A stretch of DNA of 64,000 nucleotides from Candidatus Nitrosocosmicus oleophilus (lineage in GTDB: Archaea > Thermoproteota > Nitrososphaeria > Nitrososphaerales > Nitrososphaeraceae). Location: positions 1,302,001 through 1,366,000 of the forward strand of contig NZ_CP012850.1 in NCBI RefSeq assembly GCF_000802205.1, written 5' to 3'. The notes below the pieces were generated by a model. It worked only from the letters and a program-made list of their open reading frames with translations. It was not told the DNA's origin and did not search any database. This document shows, piece by piece, positions 42,188-61,761 of this stretch (its first letter is position 1; each line of letters opens with the position of its first letter). The position numbers were made by a program, and so were the translations under genes.

Positions 42188-42276
42188 GGGTTCGTAGCTC
42201 AGCCAGGTAGAGCGTCTGGCTCTTAACCAGATCGAAAGAGGTTAAAATGTCGTGGGTCCGAATCCCACCGAACCCG
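42188..42276 (+). tRNA. tRNA-Lys (anticodon CTT) with a ~15-nt non-canonical intron
   Basis: Acceptor stem GGGTTCG/CGAACCC (7 bp), anticodon stem TCTGG/CCAGA with loop CTCTTAA (anticodon CTT), T-arm GTGGG-TCCGAAT-CCCAC, discriminator G, CCA not encoded. Between the anticodon stem and the T stem lie 20 bases instead of about 5, while Lys tRNAs have short variable loops. The extra ~15 bases (within 42233-42252) fit an archaeal intron at a non-canonical variable-loop site, flanked by TCG repeats. The sequence continues with CTACC that recurs in the repeat family downstream. Confidence 0.93.
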
Positions 42277-42592
42277 CTACCATTTATAGTAACTATAACG
42301 ATAACAATACATTAGATCGATTCTTAAGAAATGAGGATTATACATAATCGGCTAGTTGGTAGTTCAAAACAATTCTTGGATCATTTGACTTGTCGCTGTT
42401 AATTTGTATAGGTATATGAAGATGCACTTAGGTTTTGTTACTATTGCTGCTGATGTTGGCTTAGAAAAACTACTTGTTTTCTTCGGTTAACATAATTGAT
42501 AAGATCAAAGTCACGTTGTGGATTTTCGTATACTTTGAAATTGGATTCGCGTGTTGGAACTTTGATACAATATTTGACCATATTTCATAATA
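42277..42592. other. Start of the low-density accessory region behind tRNA-Lys
   Basis: AT-rich, about 315 bases. The segment CTACCATTTATAGTAAC immediately after the tRNA resembles the 3' part of the dispersed repeats. No gene seen. Confidence 0.4.
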
Positions 42593-42742
42593 GTGAATGT
42601 ATTGAACTACATAAGTACAATTTTCAAGTTTGATGATCCTTCGCAGGAGATTATTATTGATACAGGTTCTGAAAAGTATTGGATAGGTGCAGATAAAGTT
42701 TCTTCCTACTGGAGACACAAAGAAGGATTTAGTAAGGAATAA
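42593..42742 (+). CDS. Possible small protein or gene remnant
   Basis: 49 residues from GTG 42593; the C-terminal part (EIIIDTGSEKYWIGADKVSS, then YWRHKEGF) has protein-like composition, while the N-terminal third is AT-rich and doubtful. May be the 3' end of a decayed gene. Not recognised. Confidence 0.3.
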   Translation: MNVLNYISTIFKFDDPSQEIIIDTGSEKYWIGADKVSSYWRHKEGFSKE

Positions 42743-42831
42743 TTCTATTTATTTTTATCCAATTTTTCTTAATAACTGCTATACGATGTTATAAAAGAAT
42801 ATTGTAAGGTCGACCTAGTCAGCCTAGGTCT

Positions 42832-43497
42832 CTAATCCCATGAATTTTCGGCATCACCATGACCCATCATATTACCTTGACCCATCATGCCCATCTCTGG
42901 ACCCATCATATTACCTTGACCCATCATGCCCATCTCTGGACCCATCATATTACCTTGACCCATCATGCCCATCTCTGGACCCATCATATTACCTTGACCC
43001 ATCATGCCACCTTTACCGCCGTGGACTAACATCATCAATTTCATAAATGATGTTTTCTCGTCCTTCAACAAATTGCCGTTACCTGGATCGACTAAGACCT
43101 TGTGTGGTGTTCCACTAGAGTCAAGTACAATCACTGTATAAACTATGTAATGTTTTTCTGGATGTAAGAATGCAGCTATTGTAGTAGCGTTATCGCCAAC
43201 TGCTCCTCGAGCGGTTGTGATCGCATCATTGATATCTACCTTAATCATGGATTTGAATGCATTAATTATTGGCTGAAAAATAGATATAGAGCTCGTTAAG
43301 TTGTTATCCTGTTGTTTAGCCTCATAGGATCCCATAGACATATCGTCATTCATTGGCATCCCAATAGGGTTGTGAGATGTCTGACCATTTGTCGTATTAC
43401 TTGAAGTTTGTGCATAGACGCCTGCTATTGTGGAAAAAAGTAAAAGTAAACTAAACAGCGCAGCGAATGGCGCTACAAATAATGAATTATTCTGATT
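42832..43497 (-). CDS. Exported PepSY-like protein with Met/Gly-rich C-terminal repeats
   Basis: About 221 residues from ATG 43497 (frame open to 43515). Signal peptide (1-28, ending VYAQ), Asn/Met-rich linker, a region resembling a PepSY domain (AITTARGAVGD...IVYTVIVLDSSGTPHKVLVD, near 90-135), then about three and a half copies of a 13-residue GPEMGMMGQGNMM module encoded by 39-bp DNA repeats (42860-43010). Clustered Met suggests extracellular Cu(I) binding or storage. Useful to a copper-demanding ammonia oxidiser, but function is inferred. Confidence 0.72.
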   Translation of the reverse strand, partial: NQNNSLFVAPFAALFSLLLLFSTIAGVYAQTSSNTTNGQTSHNPIGMPMNDDMSMGSYEAKQQDNNLTSSISIFQPIINAFKSMIKVDINDAITTARGAVGDNATTIAAFLHPEKHYIVYTVIVLDSSGTPHKVLVDPGNGNLLKDEKTSFMKLMMLVHGGKGGMMGQGNMMGPEMGMMGQGNMMGPEMGMMGQGNMMGPEMGMMGQGNMMGHGDAENSWD

Positions 43498-43515
43498 CAT
43501 TAAGACTAAATACAA

Positions 43516-44165
43516 ATAAAAGTATATAAATATACAAAAATGTCCATAATATAACTAAAATTAGATACCTTTTTCAATTTTCCAGCGACTGTATTGCAGG
43601 CATTTTGATCATAGTAATTACTTGACTCTTCAGAAAACTAAATTTATATCTTAACCATGAAATGATTAGTTACGGCCTGCATATTATAACAAAGTTTCAA
43701 GTAAACTGTAATAGGATTAAAATCTGATTGATTTAAAAATAAGGATAACAAAGGAATATGATTTAATTGAATTATTCTCCTTTAAAGGATTTTTCTGATG
43801 AACCTATTTTATCGGAATAAACATTCCTGTAATCTCTCCAATCGATATTTGAATATGAACAAGGTACTGTAAGTAACAGCAAAAAATATCCGATATTCCT
43901 TTTTGATCGAGTAACTACAATGTAGGTTCCCATCTATCTCTAGTGGGATTTTTAGTCTAAGTCATGGCTGATGGCAATTACTATCTGAATGAACTTATCA
44001 AACCCATGTGGAATTTCACACGATTTCCACCGAACCCGCTACCTAATGTAGTAACGAAATTACTTACAACAGTGCTCTAAAATAATTAATAATCATTCAA
44101 AATTAGTATATTACAAGGTTTTTTCTAAATCACAATGTATTGAATAAAGACAAAAGAATCATACA
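43516..44165. other. Intergenic region of 650 bases containing repeat copy 1
   Basis: AT-rich, no gene. Contains the tRNA-Lys-3'-like repeat at 43996-44056. No RNA or mobile-element gene recognised. Confidence 0.45.
43996..44056 (+). repeat. tRNA-Lys 3'-end-like repeat, copy 1
   Basis: GTGGA (44008-44012) and TCCAC (44026-44030) can pair around a 13-nt loop, immediately followed by CGAACCC-GCTACC, the 3' acceptor strand, discriminator and following bases of tRNA-Lys, then TAATGTAGTAACG. Same orientation as the tRNA. Confidence 0.85.
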
Positions 44166-44828
44166 GTGAATATCCCAAAGAATGGATTAAGACATAGAAT
44201 GAGTAAAGTTTGGGATAAAATATATGAATCCGATAGCGCATTTTTTGGTGATGAACCTAGCCATTTTGCAACCCTTTGTTTAAGAGAAATGAAAACAAAT
44301 AATGTAAAAAAATTGTTAGAATTAGGTGCAGGTCAAGGTAGAGATTCAATATTTTTCGCCTCAAATGGGATTCAGGTCGCGGCATTAGATTATTCAAACG
44401 CTGGGATTGAAATAATACTCAATAAGACAAAAAAAGAAAAAAAAGGATTGCAAGTTAATTCAAAAACGTTTGATATAAGGAATGCACTTCCATTTCCAAA
44501 TAATTATTTTGATGCAGTATACTCTCATATGTTCCTTAATATGAAGTTCTCACAGGATGAACTCAATTTTATTATTTCAGAAATAAGAAGAGTATTAAAA
44601 GATGGAGGGTTTAACTTTTTTTCAGTCAGAAATAATCATGACAATTTTTACAGGAAGGGGATGGAAATTGAAAAAGGTATTTATGATATAAACGGTTTTG
44701 AAATTCGTTTCTTTACGGAAAAGGATATTCAGGATTTACTCGGAGGACATTTTCAATTACTTTGGATAAAGGAAATGTCTGAAGATCCAGTTACCCTTTA
44801 TCTAATATGTTATAAGAAGAATCTCTAA
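44166..44828 (+). CDS. Class I SAM-dependent methyltransferase
   Basis: 220 residues. Motif I LLELGAGQGRDSIFFASNG, motif II acidic AALDYSNAG, post-motif DAVYSHMF and IRRVLKDGG place it in the Methyltransf_11/25 (TehB-like) group. GTG start at 44166. Substrate unknown. It stands between two repeat copies within the accessory region, transcribed in the same direction as the repeats. Confidence 0.82.
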   Translation: MNIPKNGLRHRMSKVWDKIYESDSAFFGDEPSHFATLCLREMKTNNVKKLLELGAGQGRDSIFFASNGIQVAALDYSNAGIEIILNKTKKEKKGLQVNSKTFDIRNALPFPNNYFDAVYSHMFLNMKFSQDELNFIISEIRRVLKDGGFNFFSVRNNHDNFYRKGMEIEKGIYDINGFEIRFFTEKDIQDLLGGHFQLLWIKEMSEDPVTLYLICYKKNL

Positions 44829-45188
44829 TGAGGAATAATTTTCACAAAGGAATCTATCAGGGTACTAGTCAATTTCCAGTTATCTTGTAATGCTTTTCCA
44901 CATCATTGGCTATTGTTAATAATAGGATAACAGAATGGTTGAATAAATTCAAATTTGTTTCACATACCACCGAACCCGCATAGTATACGGGTCTATATAC
45001 GGGTTATTCGTTAATATATTCGTCATAAGGATATGAATCTTGATGATTTTCGTATTAACTTGAGGTTTAGTGGATGCCAGTAAAATTAGAAACCACACTA
45101 AGTATTAAAAATAAAATATTGAATGGGGTACACAAAAGCCATAGATTGTTCATTTTCTTGTAGGTAACTTGTAGGAGTAATTGACTTT
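44829..45188. other. Intergenic region of 360 bases with repeat copy 2
   Basis: AT-rich; the only structured element is the tRNA-3'-like repeat at 44957-44992. Nothing else recognised. Confidence 0.45.
44957..44992 (+). repeat. tRNA-Lys 3'-end-like repeat, copy 2
   Basis: TTTCACATACCACCGAACCC then GCATAGTATACGGGT. The ACCACCGAACCCGC core matches the tRNA 3' end; the GCATAGTATACGG tail is shared with copy 5. The upstream half is degenerate. Confidence 0.75.
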
Positions 45189-46007
45189 CTACCTTTCAAT
45201 ATTGGTATTATCATAGGCGGTTGCAAGGGCCTGACTATTTCGCAGATCCCCTTGATTTAGATTTTGACTTGGACTTCCAACCACAGATGGCAATGTAGCA
45301 ATTTGTGATTGATTAGTTAGAACACTGCCTGGAGGAACCAATGTGTTGTCGGGGATTTCAACTCCTGTTATGATACTGCCGACCCTGATGACCACGTTGT
45401 TACCTATCTTTGAATCAAGCACAGCACTCTTGACTCCGATTAACGTATTGTTTCCAATCCACACTGGCCCATGGATAAGCGAGTCATGTGCCAAGCTCAC
45501 ATTTCCACTGAGGTATATTGCATATCCCTCATCAAATCGTGTGTCATTGCCTAGTAGTCTATCTCCTTCTTGTGAAAACCTTTTGTTATCAACATTGGTA
45601 CCGTCTCTAACAGCATCAAGAGCATGTAGAATTACTCCATCCTGAATGTTTGAATAATCACCAATGTGAATCGGAATGCCTTCATCCGCTCTACAAACAG
45701 CAGTGGGGGCTACTAATACCTTCTTTCCAATTGAACAATCGCCGATTATTATTGCAAATGGATGTATGTATGCCGTATCATCTATTCTGGGGGATGTAAC
45801 ATTTTCAACGACAAATGTATTTACATTAGACATTATGTTTGGCCATTGTTTAGATATTATCGATGTATCGTTAATAGTATCTTGACCCATGGCGAAAGGA
45901 TTTTGATATCCTAAACTAATAGTTAATACCAGAATCAAAGATAATGTCATTACTACGACAGAGTATGTAGCACAGCTATTTTTCATTAGATTTGTTATAG
46001 ATTGCAA
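45189..46007 (-). CDS. Exported gamma-class carbonic anhydrase (Cam type)
   Basis: 272 residues: signal peptide (about 15-41), then a left-handed beta-helix. The three zinc/iron His lie in VILHALDA and SLAHDSLIHG, and the acidic-loop RADEG before IPIHIGDYSN resembles the archaeal Cam of Methanosarcina rather than short CamH. Interconverts CO2 and bicarbonate, here outside the cell membrane; this could supply bicarbonate to the HCO3-using 3HP/4HB cycle. Within the accessory region, convergent with the methyltransferase. Confidence 0.87.
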   Translation of the reverse strand: MQSITNLMKNSCATYSVVVMTLSLILVLTISLGYQNPFAMGQDTINDTSIISKQWPNIMSNVNTFVVENVTSPRIDDTAYIHPFAIIIGDCSIGKKVLVAPTAVCRADEGIPIHIGDYSNIQDGVILHALDAVRDGTNVDNKRFSQEGDRLLGNDTRFDEGYAIYLSGNVSLAHDSLIHGPVWIGNNTLIGVKSAVLDSKIGNNVVIRVGSIITGVEIPDNTLVPPGSVLTNQSQIATLPSVVGSPSQNLNQGDLRNSQALATAYDNTNIER

Positions 46008-46423
46008 AATATAAACAATTACCTTATGTAGTATAAGGAAAATGGTATTTAATAATTAATTTTAACCTATGCGTTTAATTTTTTGTAATTTTAATACATA
46101 TCTACTAGCCCCGAGCCGCGCTGAGCGCGGCGTTATAATATCCAATACCTGTCTGGACTGCAGGTCAATTACTATCTTTTATCTGCATGAAATGTGAAGA
46201 CTTTGGTTCGCAAAAGACGACTGAATTAGTAGATTTGCTGTCGTCCTAAACATAGAATGATTTACAGGTAGTAGTAATCTTGGCAACAATATTATTGTGA
46301 TGTTAAGTATGTGAACCATATTCAGGAGTTGAACAGGGTTGCCAGTTTAACATATTTTTTTGATTAGTCAATACTATTCTGCCCCGCTTTCTGAGCGGCC
46401 CAATGTCATTTCACCTACCAAAT
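46008..46423. other. Intergenic region of about 415 bases with GC-rich hairpins
   Basis: Contains a perfect 7-bp GC hairpin (46115-46131) and a second weaker one near 46383-46402 with a CCGCT/AGCGG stem. No gene recognised. Confidence 0.45.
46115..46131. repeat. GC-rich hairpin a
   Basis: GCCGCGC-TGA-GCGCGGC, perfect 7-bp stem with three-base loop, followed by GTTATAA. Member of a loose hairpin set also at 46871, 48346 and 50002. Confidence 0.75.
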
Positions 46424-46636
46424 TTATTCATATATTTGAGGATCTTCTTTATCTGGGTTCATATTTTCTTCATAAAGAATCAAAGCCGCATAATTCTCAA
46501 CATCATTTTGACTATTGGCGATAAACTTAACATCAATCAACCTTCTTACTTCTTCCTTTTTTAGAAATTCATTGATATTTTTTTCAAGGTCTGACAGCTG
46601 CTGGTTATGATAGATCTTTACTCTTGTCATATTCAT
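46424..46636 (-). CDS. Cse60-like small protein
   Basis: 70 residues, probably starting at the internal Met near residue 3. The sequence MTRVKIYHNQQLSDLEKNIN, with EFLKK, DVKFIANSQN and YAALILYEE, resembles the Cse60 family (DUF2758) described from Bacillus sporulation, where it is a small sigma-E-controlled protein of unknown biochemistry. Here sporulation is not involved; the family is wider than its name. In the island, flanked by hairpins. Confidence 0.62.
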   Translation of the reverse strand: MNMTRVKIYHNQQLSDLEKNINEFLKKEEVRRLIDVKFIANSQNDVENYAALILYEENMNPDKEDPQIYE

Positions 46637-47026
46637 AGTTATGTACGATTGGTTTTAACATGTTCATATAAACCAAAAATTGAATTACAATCGTTGTTGA
46701 AATTGTTCAATGCATCTGAATACCTTAGTTAAACCGCATATATCGTATTGAAGCGTTTTCACTGAGCCACTTTATTCATTCGTTACATAATCATTATTAT
46801 TTTAAGAGTAAACATATTGAAAGATTTATGATTTGATATGTGTGTGGTTTTAAGTTAATTTATAGTCACACGCCGTCCTCAAGGGCGGCGTTATACTATT
46901 GACATAGAAATTGGCCACTTTGGCATCTCAAATTCAGATCATCTTAGGTATCAGCCGCTCCTAGGGGACAGCCTATCAGTGTAAGGAACCCGAGCTTTTA
47001 ATTACCCTAAAATCTCCAATATTCAA
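46637..47026. other. Intergenic region of 390 bases with GC-rich hairpin b
   Basis: Holds hairpin b (46871-46890) and the promoter side of the cupredoxin-like gene. Nothing else seen. Confidence 0.4.
46871..46890. repeat. GC-rich hairpin b
   Basis: CGCCGTCC-TCAA-GGGCGGCG, 8-bp stem including one G-T pair, loop TCAA, followed by TTATAC. Very similar to hairpin c at 48346. Confidence 0.8.
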
Positions 47027-47848
47027 ATGAATAGTATAAATAAAAATTCAAGTATTCATCTATTTTTAGCAATAGTTGGTACACTGGGATTGTTAATTCC
47101 CGCATCTTACTCATTGAATAATGAGGTTAATGCTCAACTAAATATATCCAGTAGTGATGATGGCGGCAATCTCCAGCCAAATATTAGTGCAGAAAGCATT
47201 TTCAACACAAAGACAATGACTTTGGGTAATAATATAAAAAACCTTGTTATCCTTATTCCTAATGAAGGTCATCATGCTGCTGGCGAAGATAGTGAAGCAA
47301 GGTTTTTGGACCAACATTTTGTAGCCGAAAATGCAGTAGTTAACACAGGTACTACCGTTCAATGGTTTAACGGCGATGCAGGTCATGAACGCACTATAGA
47401 TGTTAAAGATGATACTGGTAATAGTGTATTTAATACCGGAGAAATCGTTGATAGTCAAGCATCTACTCCATTTACTTTTAGTAATCCAGGTGTGTATAAC
47501 TATGAAGCAGAAGGTGACCCAGGTGTAACAATGACAGGTTCCGTAACAGTTGGAAATATTCAATCATCAGTAACACCGTCTAGCGCATCTACCTCAAATT
47601 CAAATTCAAGTGGTATTGATACCGTAGGAATTTTAATGGTTCCAACACAAAATATTGATGATTATATTCAACAAATAACTAGTGCAGGAATTACAGTCGA
47701 TAATACCTATGACTTTAAAGACCTGAGAGGTGGGCAAGAAGGAACAGGAGATATACAAACATTAATTGTATGGACTACAGGTGGCAAAGATTTAATCCAA
47801 ACACTTTCATTCTTAAGCGGGCTCTCATCTGATTTGCCATATAGTTGA
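47027..47848 (+). CDS. Exported two-domain cupredoxin-like protein
   Basis: 273 residues: signal peptide (about 9-36), a plastocyanin-like beta domain (about 60-180: VQWFNGDAGHERTIDV, TFSNPGVYNYEAEGDPG, TMTGSVTV), a Ser/Thr/Asn linker, and a C-terminal alpha/beta domain (about 195-265). The usual cupredoxin Cys is absent, so type 1 copper is doubtful; a His pair (GHHAAGED, AGHERT) could bind metal. A paralogue lies at 62925-63816 with the same two-part layout. Confidence 0.75.
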   Translation: MNSINKNSSIHLFLAIVGTLGLLIPASYSLNNEVNAQLNISSSDDGGNLQPNISAESIFNTKTMTLGNNIKNLVILIPNEGHHAAGEDSEARFLDQHFVAENAVVNTGTTVQWFNGDAGHERTIDVKDDTGNSVFNTGEIVDSQASTPFTFSNPGVYNYEAEGDPGVTMTGSVTVGNIQSSVTPSSASTSNSNSSGIDTVGILMVPTQNIDDYIQQITSAGITVDNTYDFKDLRGGQEGTGDIQTLIVWTTGGKDLIQTLSFLSGLSSDLPYS

Positions 47849-48386
47849 TAACAAACTATTTTTTATTTTATTGATGACATCTAAGTTGAATTAAAAACCG
47901 ATTTAAGCTATCTTACTGAAAAGTTTTATCTGCATACCAAGAAAGGTAACAAGGACAAAAATTTACTCCAAGATATTAAATAATAAGATACATCATATTT
48001 TGGGTGCAAAGTATCTTAAATACAGATTTGTTATCTTTAATCAATTATTCTATCAATTTCCTTACCAAGCCTAGATTGACAATATTATATTACATCTAGA
48101 GAAGTATTTTTCAACTCTTCCAGATGTAAACATCAAGCCTAAATGATGCATTATAAATTAAATTGTATTGTTTATAAAATATAACTAATTAATTAGGTGT
48201 AAATGCTTTGAATCGCTAGTCATTACGCTCCATCTAAGTGTAGAATGGAATTTACTAAAATGAATTATTGTATATTTTATCGGATTCACATAACGAGTTA
48301 AATTTTAACGGTAATATATCAAAATAGTTTCAACTTTTTATGTTACGCCGCCCTCAAGGCGGCGTTACTATTCATATAAAAACAAA
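47849..48386. other. Intergenic region of about 540 bases with GC-rich hairpin c
   Basis: AT-rich, no gene; hairpin c lies at 48346-48364 flanked on both sides by TTAC. Confidence 0.45.
48346..48364. repeat. GC-rich hairpin c
   Basis: CGCCGCC-CTCAA-GGCGGCG, perfect 7-bp stem, followed by TTAC and preceded by TTA(C). Subterminal hairpins next to TTAC-type sites are reminiscent of IS200/IS605 ends, but no transposase is present. Confidence 0.8.
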
Positions 48387-48530
48387 TTATAGCTGTTGGA
48401 TTATGCCATGTTTAACTAACAAACTATACAATTCGGGTTGTTCTTTTTTCAAGGCTTCTTTTGAAGATGGTAAGAATGATTTGACATTCTTTAATCGAAT
48501 ATTAGATTCTCTTTGAGGACTATCTTCTAA
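48387..48530 (-). pseudogene. Remnant of a protein-coding gene
   Basis: A 47-residue open stretch (NIRLKNVKSFLPSSKEALKK, then EQPELYSLLVKHGIIQQ) with convincing protein composition but no start codon; a stop at 48531-48533 precedes it in frame. Likely the C-terminal end of a decayed gene. Family not recognised. Confidence 0.45.
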
Positions 48531-48550
48531 TTATCATTGTGAGTGGCTAC

Positions 48551-48577
48551 TATGACAACATGCTTCTTGTTGTCATA
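48551..48577. terminator. 9-bp inverted repeat, possible terminator
   Basis: TATGACAAC and GTTGTCATA pair perfectly around a 9-nt loop. Located between the gene remnant and the MBL-fold gene, just past the 3' end of the latter. It lacks a long T-run, so termination is only a guess. Confidence 0.35.
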
Positions 48578-48627
48578 ACGGAGGTACGGACTAGTGCCCA
48601 TCAGTAACAGGAGACTGAATTAATGTT

Positions 48628-49404
48628 TTATTTTGCTATCGCATTCTTATCTGTAATGGCAACAGACACAGCTTTTTCTATCATCCGTTGAGCATTCTCA
48701 AGTATAGGTGTTGACTGGTGCGCTAACAACAATTTTTCAACCTTGAGATTCAAAAGTCTCCTTGCAGATACAATGGAAGTTTCCCAATCCTTTGTTACTG
48801 CAGATGGAGGAACAAATAGTCCGTCAGTATTTAAAATAGAATTAAAAAGAACATCTCCACCAATGAGAATTCGACGTTCTCGGTCATACAGGGATATATG
48901 ACCTGGAGTATGTCCAGGTGTATGGATAACTTGCAGGGTGTTTGCTATCATGTCGCCATCTTTCAAAAGTTCATTAGTGACAATTGGGCCGATGTTTATG
49001 TTTCCAAATTTTTTTGTTACTTTATCAATACTAGTTCCCATCAACTTCAAAACATGTTCAAAGGCATCCTTATCAGGTGGACCATTATATTGCAGTTCAT
49101 GTGACAAGTATGTGGACTCTATCCAATGTGAATAAATTTTGGCACCCGTCTTTCTCTTTACTTCATTGGCGGCCTCAATATGGTCCGGATGCAAATGTGT
49201 TAGAACAATGCGATTTATGTCTTTGATATCAATACCTGCATTCGACAAATAGGACTCAAACGTTGGAATACTACAAGTAAAACATGTGTCTATAAGGGTA
49301 TAGTCTCTTGGACCCTCTTCAATAAGATATGACACCATACCTACAGTTGGTATCGGATGGTCCAATCCGTCTATTGAATGCACCTTTGCCACAATCTCTA
49401 CCAT
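48628..49404 (-). CDS. MBL-fold metallo-hydrolase
   Basis: 258 residues with the metallo-beta-lactamase-fold motif THLHPDHIEAA, then a His in IHTPGHTPGHISL, Asp in ILIGGDVLF and a late His in LLLAHQST, all metal ligands present. No signal peptide. Related to the glyoxalase II / lactonase-like group; actual substrate unknown. In the accessory region, transcribed against the repeats. Confidence 0.87.
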   Translation of the reverse strand: MVEIVAKVHSIDGLDHPIPTVGMVSYLIEEGPRDYTLIDTCFTCSIPTFESYLSNAGIDIKDINRIVLTHLHPDHIEAANEVKRKTGAKIYSHWIESTYLSHELQYNGPPDKDAFEHVLKLMGTSIDKVTKKFGNINIGPIVTNELLKDGDMIANTLQVIHTPGHTPGHISLYDRERRILIGGDVLFNSILNTDGLFVPPSAVTKDWETSIVSARRLLNLKVEKLLLAHQSTPILENAQRMIEKAVSVAITDKNAIAK

Positions 49405-49577
49405 GTAATATTATAGTTCGCTCCTAGCAATAAGGATTTTGTTGATTAGACCAAAGTCATTACAATTACGCATATTACCTCATGATTGGAGTAATAGAAG
49501 TAGTTCGTGTGTATAGGTGATAACGTTTGGGTCAGAAAGGTTAGTTTTTGACGCTCCGTCTCTAATTCCTTAAATGC

Positions 49578-49862
49578 ATGCCCCTAACATTACATCACAT
49601 GTTTAGATACCTTGACGCTCCTGATGACTCTTTTTTGCAAAAGGACAATGACTATAATAGATTACTGAAGAAGTTGCGTAATTTTACAGAATATTTATCA
49701 TCTGAGGACAAGGAATTATTGTTAAAAATGATTAATGAAGTTTATTATAAATATCATAGATCCATCTTAATGAACTCGGAAAGTGACACCGAACTAATGC
49801 TTTCAACGTTGATAGGGTTATTGACAAAACAGAATTTAGAAATTGAAAGATTAAGGAAGTAA
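49578..49862 (+). CDS. Small helical hypothetical protein
   Basis: 94 residues (87 if started at the Met at 49599, MFRYLDAPDDSF). Almost fully helical: YNRLLKKLRNFTEYLSSEDK, then LLLKMINEVYYKYHRS, with a Leu-rich C-terminal helix. Not recognised. Codon use is host-like. Confidence 0.5.
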   Translation: MPLTLHHMFRYLDAPDDSFLQKDNDYNRLLKKLRNFTEYLSSEDKELLLKMINEVYYKYHRSILMNSESDTELMLSTLIGLLTKQNLEIERLRK

Positions 49863-50001
49863 CATTCTCTTATGTTACATTCCTTCCAGCAGTAAAAAGG
49901 GTTCACTACTCGTTGTGCCAACTGGATGACTTTCATGCGCCGCCTTACCGGGGCCTGCTGCCATGTCATTATCTTATTAAGTCAGGCTAGATGATATTTC
50001 A

Positions 50002-50025
50002 CGCCGTCCGATAAAGGTGGCGGCG
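50002..50025. repeat. GC-rich hairpin d (degenerate)
   Basis: CGCCG (50002-50006) pairs with CGGCG (50021-50025), with an inner CC/GG pair and a larger loop. Resembles hairpins b and c in sequence around CGCCGTCC. Confidence 0.55.
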
Positions 50026-51449: not shown

Positions 51450-52034
51450 TCAACAGTGCAGTTTCTCCCTAATAATCTTTGGTTGATCCAAGCCACCGAA
51501 TTTGGTCAGTATATCGCAATAGCTATTATTATCATTCTGGTCCCTGAAAGAAACTTCATATGTAGCAGTGACGGTGCTACCTGAAGAGGGTATATGACAC
51601 GTAACCTTTAATGGTCCCTGATTTGGTGCACCGCTGCAAGTATTTTTCCCACTGATGGGATTACTAAAACTAAAAGATACCGGTCCAACATCCTGTCCAT
51701 TTAATCTTGCAACCTTTGCAAAAACGGTACCTTGTTCCAGACCACCAAATAAACCTGTGCTATCTGTTCTCCAAAGCACTGCAGCTCCATTCAAAATTTC
51801 AGTTGGCAATTGAGTAAACTTTCCAGAGGCCATATTCCAAGTTACTTGAGTGAAGAATGTCCCTGGTGGAGCAAAAGCTTGACCTATGATTACGGCATTT
51901 GCTTCTTGAGATAATGCTGGAATCACAAATACCATCACCATGAGAACAAACACAACTGAGAAAACCGCCAATTGTGTAGTTTTAGTCTGCAGAATTTCTT
52001 CCATATACGCCTTAGTCATATTTTGATACTCCAA
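51450..52034 (-). CDS. Exported protein of unknown function
   Basis: 194 residues: signal peptide or anchor (about 22-46, LAVFSVVFVLMVMVFVIPAL ending QEANA), then a beta-rich domain with four Cys (NTCSGAP, KVTCHI, YCDILT, C-terminal Cys) likely in disulfides. Starts could be Met1 or Met6. Not recognised. Confidence 0.65.
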   Translation of the reverse strand: MEYQNMTKAYMEEILQTKTTQLAVFSVVFVLMVMVFVIPALSQEANAVIIGQAFAPPGTFFTQVTWNMASGKFTQLPTEILNGAAVLWRTDSTGLFGGLEQGTVFAKVARLNGQDVGPVSFSFSNPISGKNTCSGAPNQGPLKVTCHIPSSGSTVTATYEVSFRDQNDNNSYCDILTKFGGLDQPKIIREKLHC

Positions 52035-52521
52035 ATTCTTTATATAACAATGTCTGTGAAGTATACTTCAAGATATTACTGGTTCATCATACTTGTCCAC
52101 ATTTGGATGTGAAAACTTGAAATATTCGGAGGTAAAATACAGTTTAGACTTCAAACTAATATTTTAGCAAATTCTATCATTTAGCAAAACCATAGACTCA
52201 TGTGGATATCCTCATGATTTCCACCGAACCTGCATAGTATACGGAATTTAATCCCCAAAATCATTTTGTTGGTAGAGAACAAATCACCAAAAATCTTTCC
52301 TCAAATATCAAATTTGTATCTGTCATGATAGATAGTCTATTATTTGATTGTAGAAAAGATGATGTAATTAATGAAGAAAATACAATTCGGATAATGACCC
52401 CAAATGTAATATAGAGGGTTAATTGACACTGCCACTAAATTAAGTAACTATTTACTTACTGATTTCCCAAGTAATTTTATACAAAATCTAGATAATTAGA
52501 TGGGTTCTTTTTATATTCGAT
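52035..52521. other. Intergenic region of about 490 bases with repeat copy 5
   Basis: AT-rich, no gene; holds repeat copy 5 (52193-52255). Confidence 0.45.
52193..52255 (+). repeat. tRNA-Lys 3'-end-like repeat, copy 5
   Basis: GTGGA (52202-52206) and TCCAC (52220-52224) pair around a 13-nt loop, then CGAACCTGCATAGTATACGG and AATTTAATCCCC. The tail links it to copies 2, 7 and 8. Confidence 0.85.
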
Positions 52522-53403
52522 TTGACAATTAAATATGCTGTCAATAGAATCCTAAATAAAGAATATATTAATACATCTACATTTTATTCTCATGTTTTAC
52601 CTTATCGAATAATTAAAGCCATTTATCCATCGCATAAAATAGACACAGTTAGAATTTATGATGGAAAACATTCATTACAATTAGATCCAACAGATGCCTT
52701 GAATTTGGCATGGTATAGAATTTATGAACCATTTGAAACTCAAACGATGTTAAACTCTATTGATGAAGGCGATACGGTCCTTGACTTGGGCGCATTTATT
52801 GGATATTATTCAGTCCAATTCAGTTATAAAGTAGGTCCGAAGGGGAGTGTCTACTCGGTTGAAGCAAGTCCTAATAACTTTGATATATTGAAAGAGAATA
52901 CAAGGAAATATGACAATATTCATATAGAAAATAGAGCAGTTGCAAAGGAACATAATTCTACAGTTTCAATCTACGAATGCAATTCTAATAATGGAATGAA
53001 TAGAATTTATCCATCTAAATACAGCAGCTCTAAAACAAGTAATCAAAAGGTGAAAACTATGAGACTAGATTCATACTTTGCAGGTAGACAGCCAATTAAT
53101 TTCATAAAGATGGATTTGGAAGGCTCTGAATTCGGAGCATTAGAAGGAATGGAGGAGATATTTCAAAACAACAAAGGGGTAAAGTTAATGATGGAATTTC
53201 ACCCGGATAGCATCAAAGAATATGGAAAAAACCCTAGAGATTTGATTGAATTATTATATTCATACGGTCTTAAACCATATCATCTAAACAAGAAAACAAA
53301 ACAAAAGGAACTAATCAAATTAACTATTACTTCAACGGGTTCAAATATAGACGATTTTGTTGAATATTCAAATAACGAAACAACAAATTTGATTTGTGAA
53401 TAA
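52522..53403 (+). CDS. FkbM-family methyltransferase
   Basis: 293 residues. SAM motif I TVLDLGAFIGYYSVQF, acidic YSVEASPNNF, ENRAVAKE and FIKMDLEGSEFGALEGM, the last being the FkbM family signature. These O-methylate sugars, polyketides or surface glycans. TTG start at 52522 since no ATG is near the conserved part. No glycosyltransferases adjoin it, so the acceptor is unknown. Confidence 0.83.
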   Translation: MTIKYAVNRILNKEYINTSTFYSHVLPYRIIKAIYPSHKIDTVRIYDGKHSLQLDPTDALNLAWYRIYEPFETQTMLNSIDEGDTVLDLGAFIGYYSVQFSYKVGPKGSVYSVEASPNNFDILKENTRKYDNIHIENRAVAKEHNSTVSIYECNSNNGMNRIYPSKYSSSKTSNQKVKTMRLDSYFAGRQPINFIKMDLEGSEFGALEGMEEIFQNNKGVKLMMEFHPDSIKEYGKNPRDLIELLYSYGLKPYHLNKKTKQKELIKLTITSTGSNIDDFVEYSNNETTNLICE

Positions 53404-53536
53404 TTAAACTACAAAATAAATTCAAATGTGGGTTATATGGCATGATTTAAATGCAAAACACCTTTTAAAAGGCCTTTGGAGATGTCGAAGGTATGATACT
53501 CTCTATATTGCCTTAAAAATACATTGTAACTACAGT

Positions 53537-53581
53537 GCCATTCACTAATTGTAACTAATTGTAACTAATTGTAACTAATTG
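53537..53581. repeat. 10-bp tandem repeat (TAACTAATTG)
   Basis: About four copies of TAACTAATTG in a row, with the first slightly altered (CACTAATTG). Non-coding. Confidence 0.8.
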
Positions 53582-53661
53582 ATAAATAAATACAAAAACT
53601 CATATGCGTAAGTTTCTGTATTATAATAATAATCGCCATCCAATTCAAAGTTTAGAACAGA

Positions 53662-53746
53662 TTACTCACAGATCTGTAACTCTTTCCACCGAATCCGCAA
53701 CAATATTGGTCTTTTTATTCCACCCAGTTCATTATATTAGTATACA
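53662..53746 (+). repeat. tRNA-Lys 3'-end-like repeat, copy 6, with TATA-like end
   Basis: Palindromic ACAGATCTGT (53668-53677), TTTCCACCGAATCCGCAACA, then a 40-base extension almost identical to copy 9 and ending ATTATATTAGTATA, a TATA-box-like sequence, just ahead of a small ORF. Confidence 0.85.
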
Positions 53747-53751
53747 TCATC

Positions 53752-53832
53752 ATGAGCGACCGCGACCCCAACAAACAACCCGAGAACCTTGAATTACAAG
53801 CTAGACAAATTGCCATGATACTAGACAAATGA
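53752..53832 (+). CDS. Possible 26-residue peptide, coupled to the next gene
   Basis: ATG 53752 to TGA 53832: MSDRDPNKQPENLELQARQI plus MILDK-like end. It overlaps the start of the next gene (ATGA), and a TATA-like sequence is 15-25 bases upstream. Real translation is uncertain because of its size. Confidence 0.4.
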   Translation: MSDRDPNKQPENLELQARQIAMILDK

Positions 53833-54128
53833 CCATAACTAAAACCCAACAAATAGAGCTAACCAGAAAAATTTTTAAAATACTTGGGGGTGAAAAGAAC
53901 GTATATAATTTACACTTTTACTGGAATAAGGGCGACGGGTTAGAGTTTTACACTGGTAGTATATCAAAGGTTCAAAAGAAACAAATCAAAAAATTGTTTG
54001 ATAGAAATAGATTCTACATATTGGTAGAGAATTCAAAACCTAACCCATTAGAATTATATCATCCTAACAATGGTTTACACTTTTGGATATACGAAAAGCC
54101 CACGTATAAAAACCCCCCAACATCATGA
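53829..54128 (+). CDS. Small hypothetical protein
   Basis: 99 residues, no signal peptide; Lys-rich with aromatic patches (YNLHFYWNKGDGLEFYTGSI, LHFWIYEKPTYK). Not recognised. The start overlaps the tiny upstream frame, so translation may be coupled. Sits in the island right behind repeat copy 6. Confidence 0.52.
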   Translation: MTITKTQQIELTRKIFKILGGEKNVYNLHFYWNKGDGLEFYTGSISKVQKKQIKKLFDRNRFYILVENSKPNPLELYHPNNGLHFWIYEKPTYKNPPTS

Positions 54129-54585
54129 GCCTTAACATACAAGCGCCACATCTTTTAACACTTCATTATATTATAGACCCACCATCTCTGTCTTTTATCT
54201 TTTCTAAGGAAAAAGAATCTGCGTAAATCAATTTCTAACCTAAATAATGTGTATTTATCAACAAATAATAATTTTGTTATGTATTCCTTCTGTAATAAAA
54301 CTAAATCCTACTTTACCTGATGTTAAAACAAATTCTTATTCGACTTAAACTAATACCTAGAGATTTTGGATTTATCTAAATCATTAATGGTTTCAATAAT
54401 ATTGGAGAAAGATTTTAATTTTAAATCTCAACCGAACCCTTATACCATACGGAACTTAATCCCCCCGAACCCGATACTATTTATAGTATCGATGTGGGGC
54501 TGTATAAGATGTAGGGAAATTCCTAATCTTCATCTTATAAAACAAATCTTTTTCTGTTTTCATATTCACAATTGAGATCCTATGA
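54129..54585. other. Intergenic region of about 460 bases with repeat copy 7
   Basis: AT-rich up to the sharp GC rise near 54600; repeat copy 7 at 54426-54492. No gene. Confidence 0.45.
54426..54492 (+). repeat. tRNA-Lys 3'-end-like repeat, copy 7 (double core)
   Basis: Two cores in tandem: ACCGAACCCTTATACCATAC then GGAACTTAATCCCCCCGAAC and CCG, ending in a perfect hairpin GATACTA-TTTA-TAGTATC (54473-54490). About 42 bases are shared with copy 8. Confidence 0.82.
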
Positions 54586-55830
54586 TTAACGATCCTTGAC
54601 TGTTGAGGGTAAAGTTGGGGCCAGGTACGCAGCGAGTGCCTTGAAGATGTCGGTGGCGATGCTCGTGCCCTCCGTGGCGTTCGGGCCGTGCGTGTTGTCG
54701 ATCACGATCGAGAGCTGCTGCGACGGCAGGTACGCGGCAATCCCCTCGTATCCGTTGAAGACCGGGTTCTGCAACACCCACCCATTGCCGACGGCGACCC
54801 CAAGTCCGTAGCCGATCTGCCCAGGCGCACCCGGCAGGCCCTTCGACAGATCCTCGACCTGCTCGCTCGCTGACTCCTTCGAGAGCAGCTTCCCTGTGCC
54901 GACCGCCTTGATGAGCGTGGTCATGTCGCGCAGCGTCGACGTCATGATGAGTCCGTCGCCAAGGCCCCACGACGGGCTCCATCCCGTCGACTCCTCGTAG
55001 ACACCGCGCTCCGACGTGTACGCGTGGAGTGCGGGTGAAGGGATGGCCGGGAGCTTCGTGATATTCGTTTCGGTGAGCCCGAGCGGACCGAGGAACTTCT
55101 GCTGCAAGAGCTCGGTGATCGACTTCCCGGTGATCTTCTCGACAACGTTGCCGAGGATGATGAAGTTGGAGTGCGCGTAGTGGAAGCATGCGCCCGGGTC
55201 GCAGACGATTGGCTGCGCGAACGCATACTGCAGCAGCTCATCGTCCGTCCAGTGGCGGAACGGCTCCGCGAGCTGCGCCGCCTGGAAGGGCGGGTTCTCC
55301 TGGATGTAGTCGGGGTAGCCGGAGGTGACGCTCGAGAGCATCCGCAGCGTCACCTTGTCGGCGTTGGGGTACTGCGGGAACCACTTCGACAGGGTGTCGT
55401 CGAGGCTGAGCTTGCCCTGCTCCTGCAGCTGCAGCACCAGAGTCGTGAGCATGGGGATCGCCATCGAGCCGGGACGGAACTTCATGTCCGGCGTCGCCGG
55501 CACTCCCTCCTGGGAATCCCCGAGACCAGTCTTGACGACGGTGCCGTTGTCGACGTCGACGCGCAGGAGCACCCCCTTGGCGTCCTCCTTCTGTATGACG
55601 CCCTGGGTGATCGAGATGATCTGCTTCGACACCTCGGCCTTGCTCGTGCACGTGCCGCCGATGTTGATCTGGTTCGACGAGCACTTCGAGTTGGTCGTCG
55701 TTGTATTGATACCCATAGTAGAATTCGCAAGCGTATTGTTTACTGCAGACATGTTCACAACTTGTCCCATTGCTGTAGTTGGAACGAGTATGAACGCTGC
55801 CAGCACTAAGCCTAAGCAAAAGGGTTTCAT
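54586..55830 (-). CDS. Exported beta-lactamase-fold serine hydrolase-like protein, GC-rich, likely acquired
   Basis: 414 residues: signal peptide (1-22) and an Asn/Thr/Ser-rich host-like linker (to about 45), then a class C beta-lactamase/D-Ala-D-Ala peptidase-like domain (GKLSLDDTLSKWFPQYP, LRMLSSVTSGYPDY, FHYAHSNFIILGNVVEKITG, HGPNATEGTS). The domain DNA (about 54601-55703) is strongly GC-rich in an AT-rich genome; the signal-peptide DNA is not. The SxxK motif reads GSMAIP, so the catalytic Lys is absent; it may be non-hydrolytic or belong to a variant subfamily. The long overlapping frames on both strands are GC artefacts. Confidence 0.87.
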   Translation of the reverse strand: MKPFCLGLVLAAFILVPTTAMGQVVNMSAVNNTLANSTMGINTTTTNSKCSSNQINIGGTCTSKAEVSKQIISITQGVIQKEDAKGVLLRVDVDNGTVVKTGLGDSQEGVPATPDMKFRPGSMAIPMLTTLVLQLQEQGKLSLDDTLSKWFPQYPNADKVTLRMLSSVTSGYPDYIQENPPFQAAQLAEPFRHWTDDELLQYAFAQPIVCDPGACFHYAHSNFIILGNVVEKITGKSITELLQQKFLGPLGLTETNITKLPAIPSPALHAYTSERGVYEESTGWSPSWGLGDGLIMTSTLRDMTTLIKAVGTGKLLSKESASEQVEDLSKGLPGAPGQIGYGLGVAVGNGWVLQNPVFNGYEGIAAYLPSQQLSIVIDNTHGPNATEGTSIATDIFKALAAYLAPTLPSTVKDR

Positions 55831-56139
55831 TTATAGATACTCCAGTTTCGTCACGAACATACCCACGGCTTTCATTGAACTAACACTAAATTGATTCACT
55901 TCAAGTTCTTTAGGAATCCCACCAATTACAACAGATCGATCCGTGGGTTCAATGACCGTTCCATTATTATCTTTTGTAGAAGAAGGATTCCACACAAAAT
56001 TACCTCCACCACCATCTCCTATGGAGGTATGACCTTTTACAATAGCTGTCACATTTAATTTAAATGAATCTTGATTTATTTTTCCACTTATAGCACGTAA
56101 TTCACTTATGCTATCTACTGTTATTACGGACCCGATCAT
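55831..56139 (-). CDS. Small protein resembling the N-terminus of beta-helix/pectate-lyase proteins
   Basis: 102 residues with VTAIVKGHTSIGDGGGGNFV and WNPSSTKDNNGTVIEP, a module common at the N-terminus of phage tail-spike and pectate-lyase-like beta-helix proteins; the expected helix is missing. Its TAA stop abuts the ATG of the beta-lactamase-like gene (zero gap), so the two are probably co-translated. Either a truncated spike-type gene or a free-standing module. Confidence 0.6.
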   Translation of the reverse strand: MIGSVITVDSISELRAISGKINQDSFKLNVTAIVKGHTSIGDGGGGNFVWNPSSTKDNNGTVIEPTDRSVVIGGIPKELEVNQFSVSSMKAVGMFVTKLEYL

Positions 56140-56899
56140 ATTTTCAAATATGTAGATTAATATTTAAATTTGGTGTTAATAGACAAAATCAAGAATTAAC
56201 GGAAAATGACTATCAATAACGGGTCTAAACTGCTAAAACTAGCTAATTCATGGAGCAATTTCTGCATTGAGTTTATATTAAAATATCCATTCAAGAACTT
56301 ATCCATGCTTGGAAGATTCGAAAGTCACTGATGAATATTAAGATATTAACTGGTGCATAAGATAGAAAGATTTGTGAATCATTTATGGATATAGAAATGC
56401 ACCTGTAATCCAAACTTCAGAAATGTCGTGTTTTATGAAGATATAAAATTTTTATAGAAATTAGGACATTCTTTCTTACGGTTATCGATCTATCACGCAT
56501 ATTTTGTTTGTATCCATATTAACTTTGCGTTAGGATTGGGCCATTTAAATAGTCAAATTTGTTATTAGTCCCATTGAGACCGTATTAAAAATTTATTACT
56601 TCTTATTACAAATAGATTACAAACTGATTATGATATCAAAATAAAAAAATCCTTAAACCCATGTGGATATCCTCAAGAGTTCCACCGAACCCTTATACCA
56701 TACGGAACTTAATCCCCCCGAACCCGCTACCCGCTACCTAATATAGTAACGATTTATCATATAATCTAGTTAAAGTAATTCTAAACTGTCGACATATTAA
56801 AAAACATTATAAAAAAATCGGCTGATTGCAAAGAAAACCTTACCATTATCTCCTCTTAAACGTATTTATAGTATTCTGAGAATCACTATCTGAATAAAA
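56140..56899. other. Intergenic region of 760 bases with repeat copy 8
   Basis: AT-rich, no gene; repeat copy 8 at 56653-56754. A stretch near 56460-56520 may hold promoters; nothing else seen. Confidence 0.45.
56653..56754 (+). repeat. tRNA-Lys 3'-end-like repeat, copy 8 (double core)
   Basis: GTGGA (56663-56667)/TCCAC (56681-56685) stem with 13-nt loop, CGAACCC, then the copy-7-like segment, a second CCGAACCCGCTACC with CCGCTACC duplicated, ending TAATATAGTAACGAT. The fullest copy. Confidence 0.88.
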
Positions 56900-57355
56900 T
56901 TGGCTAATAAACCCATTTTCCTGATCGCCACTCTATTTGCATTAATAACTTCCATGGCCACTGCTGCGTTATTATCTTATTCGATGGATCTAGAAAATAC
57001 AGTTTATGGTTCTGCTATTCCTAAACAAGGTGAAGAATCCACAGGTGAAGAATCCACAGGTGAAGAATCCACAGGTGAAGAATCCACAGGTGAAGTACAA
57101 AACAATTCGAGTATCTCAGACAATTCATCTATAGGAAATAAGTTACCTGTAGTCAACAGCAATTCGACATTAATAACCATAGGTTGTACGCTTGGGTATG
57201 GATACGACCCCAATAGCCCTAACCCTATTTGTGTACCACTTGATGGAAGCGAAAAACCAGGAGTTATCACCTGTTCAGCTTTAGGTTGCCCTTATAATCC
57301 ACCTAATCCAAATGCTAACCAACCTATAGGAAGTGGTAATAGTCTAACCAAGTAG
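56900..57355 (+). CDS. Exported protein with GEEST repeats
   Basis: 151 residues (TTG start): signal peptide or anchor (about 1-28), four GEEST pentapeptides encoded by 15-bp repeats (57030-57090), a Ser/Asn stretch, and a C-terminal Pro/Asn/Gly-rich part with paired Cys (IGCTLGYGYDPNSPNPICVP, VITCSALGCPYNPPNP). Four Cys suggest two disulfides. Not recognised. Confidence 0.65.
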   Translation: MANKPIFLIATLFALITSMATAALLSYSMDLENTVYGSAIPKQGEESTGEESTGEESTGEESTGEVQNNSSISDNSSIGNKLPVVNSNSTLITIGCTLGYGYDPNSPNPICVPLDGSEKPGVITCSALGCPYNPPNPNANQPIGSGNSLTK

Positions 57356-57873
57356 TAGCAATCAAACTACTGTTTTAGTAAGCTCTTTTTTGATGATCAA
57401 TAGGCCTACTTAAAGCAATACTCACGGATTGTCATATTATTTATTATAAAAATAGTGATAAAATCGAGTCAAAAATGTTGACGAAATTCAACAAACAAGA
57501 CCTGGATTCTTTAGGATGGATATAAAATTTACACTCGTTCCTTTTAGATAACTGGATTAATATTTATCTTACTTTTGATTTATTTAACTTTATAATTTTA
57601 TCCCAAATCCTACCAACTTGTATGCATATAGAATCAAGCCTTGTTGTAATTCTTAAAACTATTATTATTCTTAGTCAAATAGTAAGTCAAACTTGACCTT
57701 TTAAAAAGCTCCGCGTCGGAGAGAAGAATTATAGAGTATCCAATCAGAGATTGTTAAAAGAATTTATCTCCCAATTCGGGCACTTGATGCTTGAAGCAGT
57801 ATAAATTAATCTTGTAATACACCTTGCAATTTCTGAGATTATAAGGTTTTAAGAATGTTACAATTTAAGATAA
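57356..57873. other. Intergenic region of about 520 bases, one small hairpin
   Basis: AT-rich; a CTCCG-CGT-CGGAG hairpin is at about 57708-57720. No gene or RNA recognised. Confidence 0.4.
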
Positions 57874-58518
57874 ATGCTCAAATACTTCTTCCTTAGATAT
57901 TACTTATCATTGAATAATTTTAAAAATTTGCAAAATTACTCAAAATCAATCTCTGCAGTGGTCGTTTCTGCAATGATTCTTTCAATAATCATATCAATAT
58001 CAATACCGAATGGATATGCTGCACCAAAGGATCCTCGGAATGATGAAAACGCGAAGTGTAGCACGGTATATGATAAGAAAGAAAAAAAGAACAAAGAAAC
58101 TTGTTGCTGGAGAGAAATGGTGCCTGGTAAAATATTAGGAAACACATATTGTCAAACATGTGATAGCTACTCAAATAATTGTGGAGATAAAGTACTTCAA
58201 AACCGTCTTGCAGAGCAAACTAAACCGTTGGATCCCCTCATAAATAATGATATAGTAACAGAGAATCCAACTACATTAGAACCGTCTTCTCCAACATCCA
58301 GCTCAGGGATGATTGTAACAGAGCCTTTGCAACAAATGGAAACTAACGATGATAGCAACAAGGTAGACGGGGGCTTATCAGAAGATTCACAATCAAACTC
58401 TGATGATGTAAGTGACACAGATACCCAGCAAGAAAGTGATGTTTCAGAGAACTCTGAAGAATTTACAAATTCAAATTCAAAGGACACCGGAGCGGTCGAT
58501 AATGAGGCTCCTCAATAG
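57874..58518 (+). CDS. Exported Cys-containing protein with acidic Ser/Asn tail
   Basis: 214 residues: signal peptide (about 25-50, ending GYAAP), a compact Cys-rich section (KCSTVYDKK, ETCCWREMVPG, YCQTCDSYSNNCGD; seven Cys) and a long acidic low-complexity tail (from about 115). The first 24 residues may be a longer leader. Resembles other small Cys-rich exported proteins of ammonia-oxidising archaea; function unknown. Confidence 0.68.
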   Translation: MLKYFFLRYYLSLNNFKNLQNYSKSISAVVVSAMILSIIISISIPNGYAAPKDPRNDENAKCSTVYDKKEKKNKETCCWREMVPGKILGNTYCQTCDSYSNNCGDKVLQNRLAEQTKPLDPLINNDIVTENPTTLEPSSPTSSSGMIVTEPLQQMETNDDSNKVDGGLSEDSQSNSDDVSDTDTQQESDVSENSEEFTNSNSKDTGAVDNEAPQ

Positions 58519-59276
58519 TTGGAATACCGCAATAAAAAAAGATTCATTTTTCTTTAATCCTATTTTTGAAAATTTGTTGATTATTCATTTATTTAATGAT
58601 ATTTTTCCTTTCTTCAACATATACGTTGATACAGAACTTCATATGGTCAATAATCTCAATAAGCGAACCTCATTCTCAACTAGTAATTTCTCCTTTATCA
58701 ATTGAAATAAAATCTATATATTAATCCTTATTATATGAAAGATCCTTTGCAATTTCACAGCATTAGATAATCTATAAACGGTAGCCAAAAAATTGGAATC
58801 CATATATGGGACTGATACCATCCTAAAGTTTAAGAAGATAGTTTGATTTGTCTACTGTTTTTGTAAACCAGGTGAATACTAATTTAGCAATTAAAACGGT
58901 ATACCCACCTTTTCTCATGTTACATTATCGTCTTTGAATATAGTATCCTATGCCAATATGCATATTGCGATTCAAACGGATTAACTCGGTTATCAAACCC
59001 CTGTGGATATCCTCATGATTTCCACCGAATCCGCAACAATATTGGTCTTTTTATTCCACCCATCGTATTATATTAGTATAATAAATGACGGAATCTGTCT
59101 ATGAAGCCAATCATTCTGGTCTAGAGTCTGAGCAAAATTCCCATCTAAATACCAATAGAAGCCCCTATCTACCTTCTTGTACGCTCTAAAATCTTCCGAA
59201 GCGAAGAGACAATATCCTGCAAGATTAAAGAAATTTTTTGATTATACTGGAATTAAAATCGATTCTATGACTATTT
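58519..59276. other. Intergenic region of about 760 bases with repeat copy 9
   Basis: AT-rich; repeat copy 9 at 58991-59081. A 34-codon frame from ATG 59084 follows a TATA-like end of the repeat but has little protein character. Upstream of 58990 nothing recognised. Confidence 0.45.
58991..59081 (+). repeat. tRNA-Lys 3'-end-like repeat, copy 9, with TATA-like end
   Basis: GTGGA (59003-59007)/TCCAC (59021-59025) around a 13-nt loop, CGAATCCGCAACAATATTGG, then a 40-base extension nearly identical to copy 6, ending ATTATATTAGTATAATAAAT. Preceded by TATCAAACCCC as in copy 1. Confidence 0.87.
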
Positions 59277-61749: not shown

Positions 61750-61761
61750 CTTTACTTCCAC

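Follow-up and report, generated by a model that had tools for sequence, protein, structure and literature searches.

Behind a tRNA-Lys(CTT) gene in Candidatus Nitrosocosmicus oleophilus lies a long array of short sites that repeat the 3' end of that tRNA. The array begins in the 64,000-nucleotide stretch analyzed here (the window), which comprises bases 1302001-1366000 of a single-contig genome of 3,430,706 bp; seven-digit coordinates below are genome positions and shorter ones window positions. With a probability of about 75%, we interpret the repeats as hybrid attachment (att) sites that arose by serial insertion, through a tyrosine recombinase, of mostly integrase-less cassettes at the tRNA-Lys 3' end. 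The sites stand on one strand and only downstream of the tRNA, homologous segments are bounded by their cores, and a recombinase occupies the same locus in related genomes. These observations favor one of two suggestions made in an earlier note on this DNA, namely that the repeats are scars of repeated integration at a tRNA 3' end.

Distribution of the Core Sequence

The only tRNA found by ARAGORN in the window was tRNA-Lys(CTT), at 42188-42277 on the plus strand. It was also the only Rfam match there (RF00005, 61.8 bits), and Rfam analysis of 100 kb of a second array, described below, returned nothing, so that an RNA element was discarded as an explanation of the repeats. The tRNA serves as the anchor, or attB-like site, and its 3' end contributes the core CCACCGAACC (42265-42274), a sequence of 10-13 bp that occurs on one strand and solely downstream of this gene. 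When both strands of the window were scanned with the pattern CCACCGAACCCGC, allowing up to three mismatches, the tRNA itself and eleven plus-strand core copies behind it were obtained. The cores start at 44027, 44967, 50676, 50969, 52221, 53686, 54429, 56682, and 59022, with second cores at 54462 and 56715. The nine same-strand copies that the earlier note had listed were all found close to the positions given there, and its statement that the 42 kb before the tRNA held none was borne out, as no plus-strand core was detected in that part even at three mismatches. A single minus-strand match, with three mismatches, was located at 62991.

Genome-wide, CCACCGAACCCGC with at most one mismatch gave 18 matches, compared to three for the reversed control pattern. 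All 14 forward matches fell within 1344265-1421937, at tRNA-Lys and downstream of it, and the four reverse matches were distributed between the second array (three) and an ectopic cluster (one). The exact 10-mer CCACCGRRCC was matched 38 times in the genome (control pattern, eight): 12 matches in the Lys array, all on the plus strand, 16 in the second array at tRNA-Arg(TCG), all on the minus strand, three in the ectopic cluster, and seven elsewhere, one of which (1428612) falls in the stretch of the Lys array but on the other strand. A genome-wide count, as the note had proposed, placed all 18 near-exact copies in the Lys array, the second array, or the ectopic cluster instead of spreading them everywhere. 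The Lys array continues past the window, with approximately 35 sites up to 1445 kb and possibly 1470 kb (100-125 kb); the copies reported over 15 kb are real, but that extent was too small. The similarity also exceeds the seven-base acceptor strand, since it covers 10-13 bp and is accompanied by recurring arm classes.

Architecture of the Sites

Each site is composed of a left arm, the core, and a right arm. The left arms belong to a few classes, most of which are palindromes, and their complementarity peaked at a center exactly 13.0 bp before the core and nowhere else to a comparable degree. The peak value was 0.595 of eight pairs, against a shuffled mean of 0.274 (standard deviation 0.022; Z = 14.6), for the 50 unique left arms of the ectopic cluster and six arrays; the null was generated by shuffling bases within each arm and ignores the kinship of arms of the same class. 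Several unrelated arm classes have this center in common, the arms of the Arg array share it while being unrelated in sequence, and in G016, a genome of another genus, a single element showed it by eye at its right end. The tRNA sites are without the 13-bp palindrome, and in the copy at 50676 the palindrome is found 11 bp before the core. The palindrome may bind the recombinase or an accessory protein. A GTGGA...TCCAC mimic of the T-arm, which the earlier note had described for part of the copies, holds for one arm class and was rejected as a general feature; what the sites share is the centered palindrome. In G015 (L168, L174, and L176), which represents another genus, the tRNA-Lys core is accompanied by two more copies whose left-arm palindrome lies at another distance, and these may represent a different site type.

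No single strong palindrome position was detected in the right arms. They also form classes, including CTACC...TAGTAAC, ATAGTATACGGGTCTATATA, TATACCATACGGAACTTAATCC, and GGTCTTTTTATTCCACCC, so that the CTACC...TAGTAAC continuation noted earlier is one right-arm type with others beside it. The two sets of classes occur in many combinations, one left class being found with several right classes and vice versa. Because these combinations are joined through the core, strand exchange is expected to take place inside the core. At many sites, two cores are found 33 bp apart.

Cassettes and Their Boundaries

The median core-to-core distance is 1.5 kb in the Lys array and 3.1 kb in the Arg array. Most units lack a recombinase and hold one cargo gene or a few, and 11 of the 25 cassettes shorter than 3 kb contain one open reading frame (ORF) of at least 80 aa. 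Cargo ORFs of this length lie on both strands (63 and 46), so that they follow no common promoter logic. The cargo includes methyltransferases, MBL-fold and beta-lactamase/DD-peptidase-fold proteins, a universal stress protein, a P-type ATPase, an Nramp transporter, a histidine kinase, and an alcohol dehydrogenase, together with many proteins that belong to no family.

The right flank of tRNA-Lys was examined in 12 relatives, and the arrays at the orthologous tRNA-Lys were analyzed in four congeneric genomes (G003, G005, G007, and G010). Array-versus-array matches were collected after removal of insertion sequences, with lower limits of 80% identity and 150 bp. The same orientation was observed in 96 of 98 such DNA matches between arrays. 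Match ends coincided with a core in both copies in 27 of 196 cases, whereas 1000 random placements gave 0.17 such ends on average and never more than 4; these placements were random within each array, and clustering was not modeled.

Cassette F1 (approximately 1.03 kb) encodes one 196-aa protein with no Pfam match and is present in two copies here, two in G010, and one in G003, as well as in another metagenome-assembled genome; the copies are preceded by differing left arms and have differing followers. Homologues of cassette X are 94% identical in G007 and 91% identical in G005, and copies of cassette F3 in G007, G003, and G005 are 92-94% identical. X stands before F3 in this genome and in G007, where a 532-bp unit with a core at each end separates the two, and F3 stands before X in G005. 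Cassettes retain their own two arms while neighbors and order change. That the small units turn up again in several species with neither boundary lost favors mobility, and the sequence comparisons suggest that the cassettes have moved.

Mobile DNA of another kind is also present in the array: a near-identical insertion sequence whose transposase starts with VIDWPSYNRSLVQRG was found at L020:14522-15415, L022:8211-9104, and L023:4968-5861, and IS5-like transposase copies occur as well.

Tyrosine Recombinase in Related Genomes

The element that comes first behind this tRNA-Lys in G007 and G003 opens with a tyrosine recombinase of approximately 450 aa, 178 nt from the tRNA start. In G007, it is followed by an MCM helicase (PF00493) and a family B polymerase (PF00136). 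The recombinase had a weak PF00589 score in the genome search and no match in the Pfam protein scan. Its assignment is based on this weak match and on its similarity to L028, a protein above the PF00589 cut-off with which it shares 32% identity over 453 aa. The residues R...RHxxI...W...Y were recognized by eye, and comparison of the sequence with solved structures gave nothing useful. The earlier note had proposed to look for such a gene beyond the window; it is found in the first element of the relatives, and none is intact in the Lys array of this genome. The first element of G007 (approximately 23 kb; L032:14983-16344 and neighbors) additionally encodes a pair of ApeA-type HEPN proteins with a probable role in anti-phage defense.

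Across the genus and family, integrases of this family are located immediately behind tRNA-Lys, -Arg(TCG), -Ile, and -Ala, at 60-80 nt from the tRNA 3' ends, and a conserved right arm resembling GGGTTCAAATA goes with them. Relics of the integrase, of 60 aa in G010, 39 aa in G005, and 67 aa in the Arg array of this genome, lie directly behind sites with an integrase-type right arm, which shows that decay also occurs. Since most units carry no recombinase, it is probably provided in trans by elements that use the same tRNA in related species, and the integrase elements with MCM and family B polymerase are plausible helpers. Open homologues of the array-type integrase are present in this genome as L144 (1243572-1244843, minus strand) and L155 (2712634, plus strand, adjoining tRNA-Ile) and are possible helpers in trans. 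A search of IMG/VR viral contigs with two exact site patterns gave no match, and no free viral form was found in this way.

Unarrayed Locus and Core-Decay Gradient

In G091 and G095, which belong to another genus of the same family, each genome has a single exact copy of the 13-mer, the one at tRNA-Lys. The same two genes as here lie upstream (78-87% identity), and the downstream flank is not shared. These genomes represent an unarrayed locus, short of a proven empty site. In the arrays, cores tend to be more decayed the farther they lie from the tRNA (rho 0.47 and p 0.005 in the Lys array; rho 0.23 and p 0.007 after pooling). This gradient, which is weak outside the Lys array, suggests that new cassettes enter next to the tRNA.

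Proposed Mechanism and Alternative Explanations

In the mechanism that we propose, a tyrosine recombinase would recognize the 10-13-bp core at the tRNA-Lys(CTT) 3' end, and a circular DNA with one site (left palindrome, core, and right arm) would integrate there. The insertion would join the resident left arm to the right arm of the newcomer and the left arm of the newcomer to the resident right arm, giving a cassette in the order right arm, cargo, left arm. Each insertion would leave a complete site, and repeated insertions, mostly next to the tRNA, would build the array. Autonomous elements with integrase, MCM, and family B polymerase would probably supply the recombinase in trans. The model thus presupposes circular intermediates and mobilization in trans, and the system may be active at present.

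Several findings weigh against this interpretation. The Lys array of this genome contains no intact recombinase, and the three integrase homologues of the genome lie elsewhere, at tRNA-Ile, at tRNA-Ser, and at one position off tRNA genes. The core match is short, and among the genomes compared there is no strain pair that is one cassette apart. Some units exceed 5 kb, carry many genes, and resemble rumps of larger elements. The F1 protein occurs in four further genomes (including G003), with cores on both sides in two of the four and, by the criteria used, without them in the other two. Finally, the decay gradient is significant by itself only in the Lys array of this genome.

Part of this evidence would fit accretion followed by decay, in which every segment was once a full element with its own integrase, inserted in tandem at the tRNA, and the integrases were later deleted, so that no independently mobile integrase-less cassette ever existed. 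The integrase relics behind integrase-type right arms, the several segments above 5 kb, and the increase of core mismatches with distance are all consistent with such a history. However, the small cassettes F1, F2, and F3 recur elsewhere and across species between an unchanged pair of boundaries, a pattern that random deletion would fail to yield, and no integrase match was obtained in the short recurring cassettes. We therefore regard accretion and decay as unlikely, although it is the strongest of the competing explanations.

The other alternatives are far less probable. The second suggestion of the earlier note, a mobile repeat family derived from the tRNA, would correspond to a dispersed self-copying repeat resembling a short interspersed nuclear element (SINE) or a miniature inverted-repeat transposable element (MITE). 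The repeats do contain part of a tRNA, and many have hairpins, but they lie on one strand and on one side of one tRNA, with no scattered copies in both orientations. Moreover, the core joins unlike arms on its two sides, and the conserved, moving unit is the DNA between two cores. The locus-restricted distribution thus led us to dismiss this explanation. A true integron, with IntI and attC, would account for single-gene cassettes, an anchored array, changes of order, and sites of variable sequence with constant geometry. It is nevertheless just as improbable, because the sites consist of a direct core beside a palindrome centered 13 bp upstream and not of attC with inverted R''/R' boxes, and a tRNA 3' end forms the anchor. 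The linked recombinase scored 25.9 bits with the NCBI XerA/integron model, whose cut-off is 220. The integron was accordingly discarded for want of attC architecture, IntI being judged by the score of that model, far below the cut-off. Casposons or other transposons, with the core as a target-site duplication, are the least probable source. Site-specific insertion is a property of casposons, which can stand in tandem in thaumarchaea (PMC6563490). No Cas1 homologue (PF01867) was detected in this genome by a search that detected its controls, and on this ground casposons were ruled out; furthermore, as judged by eye, neither arm is an inverted copy of the other, and a tyrosine recombinase is present at the site in relatives.

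Organization of the Array in the Window

The primary site (42265-42300, plus strand) consists of the T-arm, the core CCACCGAACC, and a right arm TACC..ATAGTAAC, with no palindrome 13 bp before the core. Cassette 1 (42275-44026; 1762 bp core to core) carries an ORF at 42832-43515 on the minus strand that encodes 227 aa without a Pfam match; the product looks secreted, and its gene contains consecutive, nearly identical coding repeats with a high content of Met, Gly, and Gln. The cassette ends at a hybrid att site (44001-44061, plus strand) with a La-type left arm and a right arm of the TAGTAAC type. Cassette 2 (44037-44966; 940 bp) encodes a SAM methyltransferase (44166-44828, plus strand) and is followed by a hybrid att site at 44941-45005 (plus strand), where the left arm Lb meets the right arm ATAGTATACGGGTCTATATA. 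This right arm precedes an integrase in relatives, and no integrase is found there in this genome. A long multi-gene segment (44977-50675) then encodes, among others, a hexapeptide-repeat protein (45189-46007, minus strand) and an MBL-fold protein (48628-49404, minus strand).

A diverged site at 50650-50710 (plus strand) combines the left arm Lc (TCACAGATCTGTGA, with the palindrome 11 bp before the core) with the core CCATCGAACC, and a hybrid att site at 50943-51003 (plus strand) has the left arm Ld, with the perfect palindrome TGTGAAATTTCACA, and a TAGTAAC-type right arm. The cassette at 50979-52220 (1252 bp) contains an ORF without a Pfam match (51450-52034, minus strand) and leads to a hybrid att site with left arm La and right arm ATAGTATACGGAATTTAATCC (52195-52255, plus strand). 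The next cassette (52231-53685; 1465 bp) encodes an FkbM-type methyltransferase (52522-53403, plus strand); behind it, a hybrid att site at 53660-53725 (plus strand) joins Lc to GGTCTTTTTATTCCACCC.

Cassette X (53696-54428; 743 bp; ORF 53829-54128, plus strand) is separated from the recurring cassette F3 by a double-core site at 54403-54495 (plus strand), whose cores at 54429 and 54462 lie 33 bp apart around TTATACCATACGGAACTTAATC. F3 (54472-56681; 2220 bp) encodes a serine beta-lactamase/DD-peptidase-fold protein (54586-55830, minus strand) and a further ORF (55831-56139, minus strand), and is followed by a double-core site with cores at 56682 and 56715 (56656-56755, plus strand). The subsequent cassette (56725-59021; 2307 bp) has two plus-strand ORFs, 56900-57355 and 57874-58518. 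A hybrid att site with left arm La and right arm GGTCTTTTTATTCCACCC (58996-59056, plus strand) is the last in the window, and the segment that starts behind it (59032-64000) runs past the window to a site at the equivalent of position 65969 (1367969).

Second Array and Ectopic Cluster

The second array lies on the minus strand, where approximately 30 sites extend over approximately 150 kb between 1132860 and about 978-1002 kb. Its first site is the 3' end of tRNA-Arg(TCG) (1132849-1132923; L108:12849-12923), its core is CCACCGGGCCCG(T/C), and it has arm classes of its own. A 200-kb scan yielded no Arg-type core on the opposite strand, and one lone minus-strand match, with two mismatches, lay on the upstream side of tRNA-Arg (1161350). 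The Arg array was probably built in the same way as the Lys array. The ectopic cluster (1834401-1836915, minus strand) consists of three sites and two cassettes in which Lys-type and Arg-type arms and cores are mixed. At 1835 kb, it holds a homologue (MANKPIFLIA) of ORF 56900-57355 from the cassette at 56725-59021 of the window.

Comparison With Known Systems

In the open-access texts searched, no description of tRNA-anchored cassette arrays in Nitrosocosmicus was found, and two papers on the genus make no mention of integrases; archaeal arrays of such length and modularity were likewise not found in print. If our interpretation is true, ammonia oxidizers of the Nitrosocosmicus group collect, reshuffle, and exchange single genes at chromosomal docks without integron parts, which would help to explain how these soil archaea acquire genes such as those found here for transporters, stress proteins, methyltransferases, and hydrolases. 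The approximately 65 sites in one genome, with two core specificities, also provide a natural att-site library for testing the rules of archaeal recombinases. We tentatively consider, at somewhat less than even odds, that these arrays form a platform distinct from integrons, characterized by a tRNA dock, palindrome-core-arm cassettes, MCM/PolB helpers acting in trans, tRNA-proximal entry, and a time-ordered store of adaptive genes.

In bacteria, accretion of cis-mobilizable elements (CIMEs), integrative and conjugative elements, and integrative and mobilizable elements produces tandem elements at one att site, some of them integrase-less, att-flanked, and mobilized in trans. The arrays described here, with approximately 35 and 30 sites, resemble CIME accretion in their tandem att-flanked segments without a recombinase, as neither array of this genome yielded a PF00589 match or an intact integrase homologue. 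In contrast, they contain far more units, many of only 0.5-3 kb with one or few cargo genes, they have palindromic arm classes at a fixed distance, and they occupy two tRNA loci in one archaeal genome. Tycheposons are cargo elements of Prochlorococcus integrated at tRNA genes by tyrosine recombinases; the present units would differ from them in that most lack a recombinase and that they stand in long arrays.

Archaeal metagenome-assembled genomes do contain true integrons with attC (PMC9668308). The present system shares with them an anchored array, small cargo units, an anchor site without a palindrome, and arrays without a resident integrase; unlike integrons, it showed no IntI or attC, is anchored at a tRNA 3' end, combines a direct core with a palindrome, and carries genes on both strands. 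Archaea are also known to accumulate tandem insertions at a single site (PMC6563490; PMC8371274). The cryptic integrated elements of Thaumarchaeota encode a tyrosine recombinase and MCM/PolB, and are inserted at tRNA 3' ends with att sites of a median of 17 bp; for N. oleophilus MY3, a 98-kb element with PolB and MCM and 43 IS5 copies are given (PMC6563490). The tyrosine recombinase, tRNA 3' end, short att sites, and MCM/PolB are thus common to those elements and to the system described here. However, the text of that paper describes one element or two in tandem per site, and neither long arrays nor integrase-less single-gene units were found in it (PMC6563490), whereas the arrays of this genome consist of approximately 30-35 hybrid sites and include integrase-less single-gene units.

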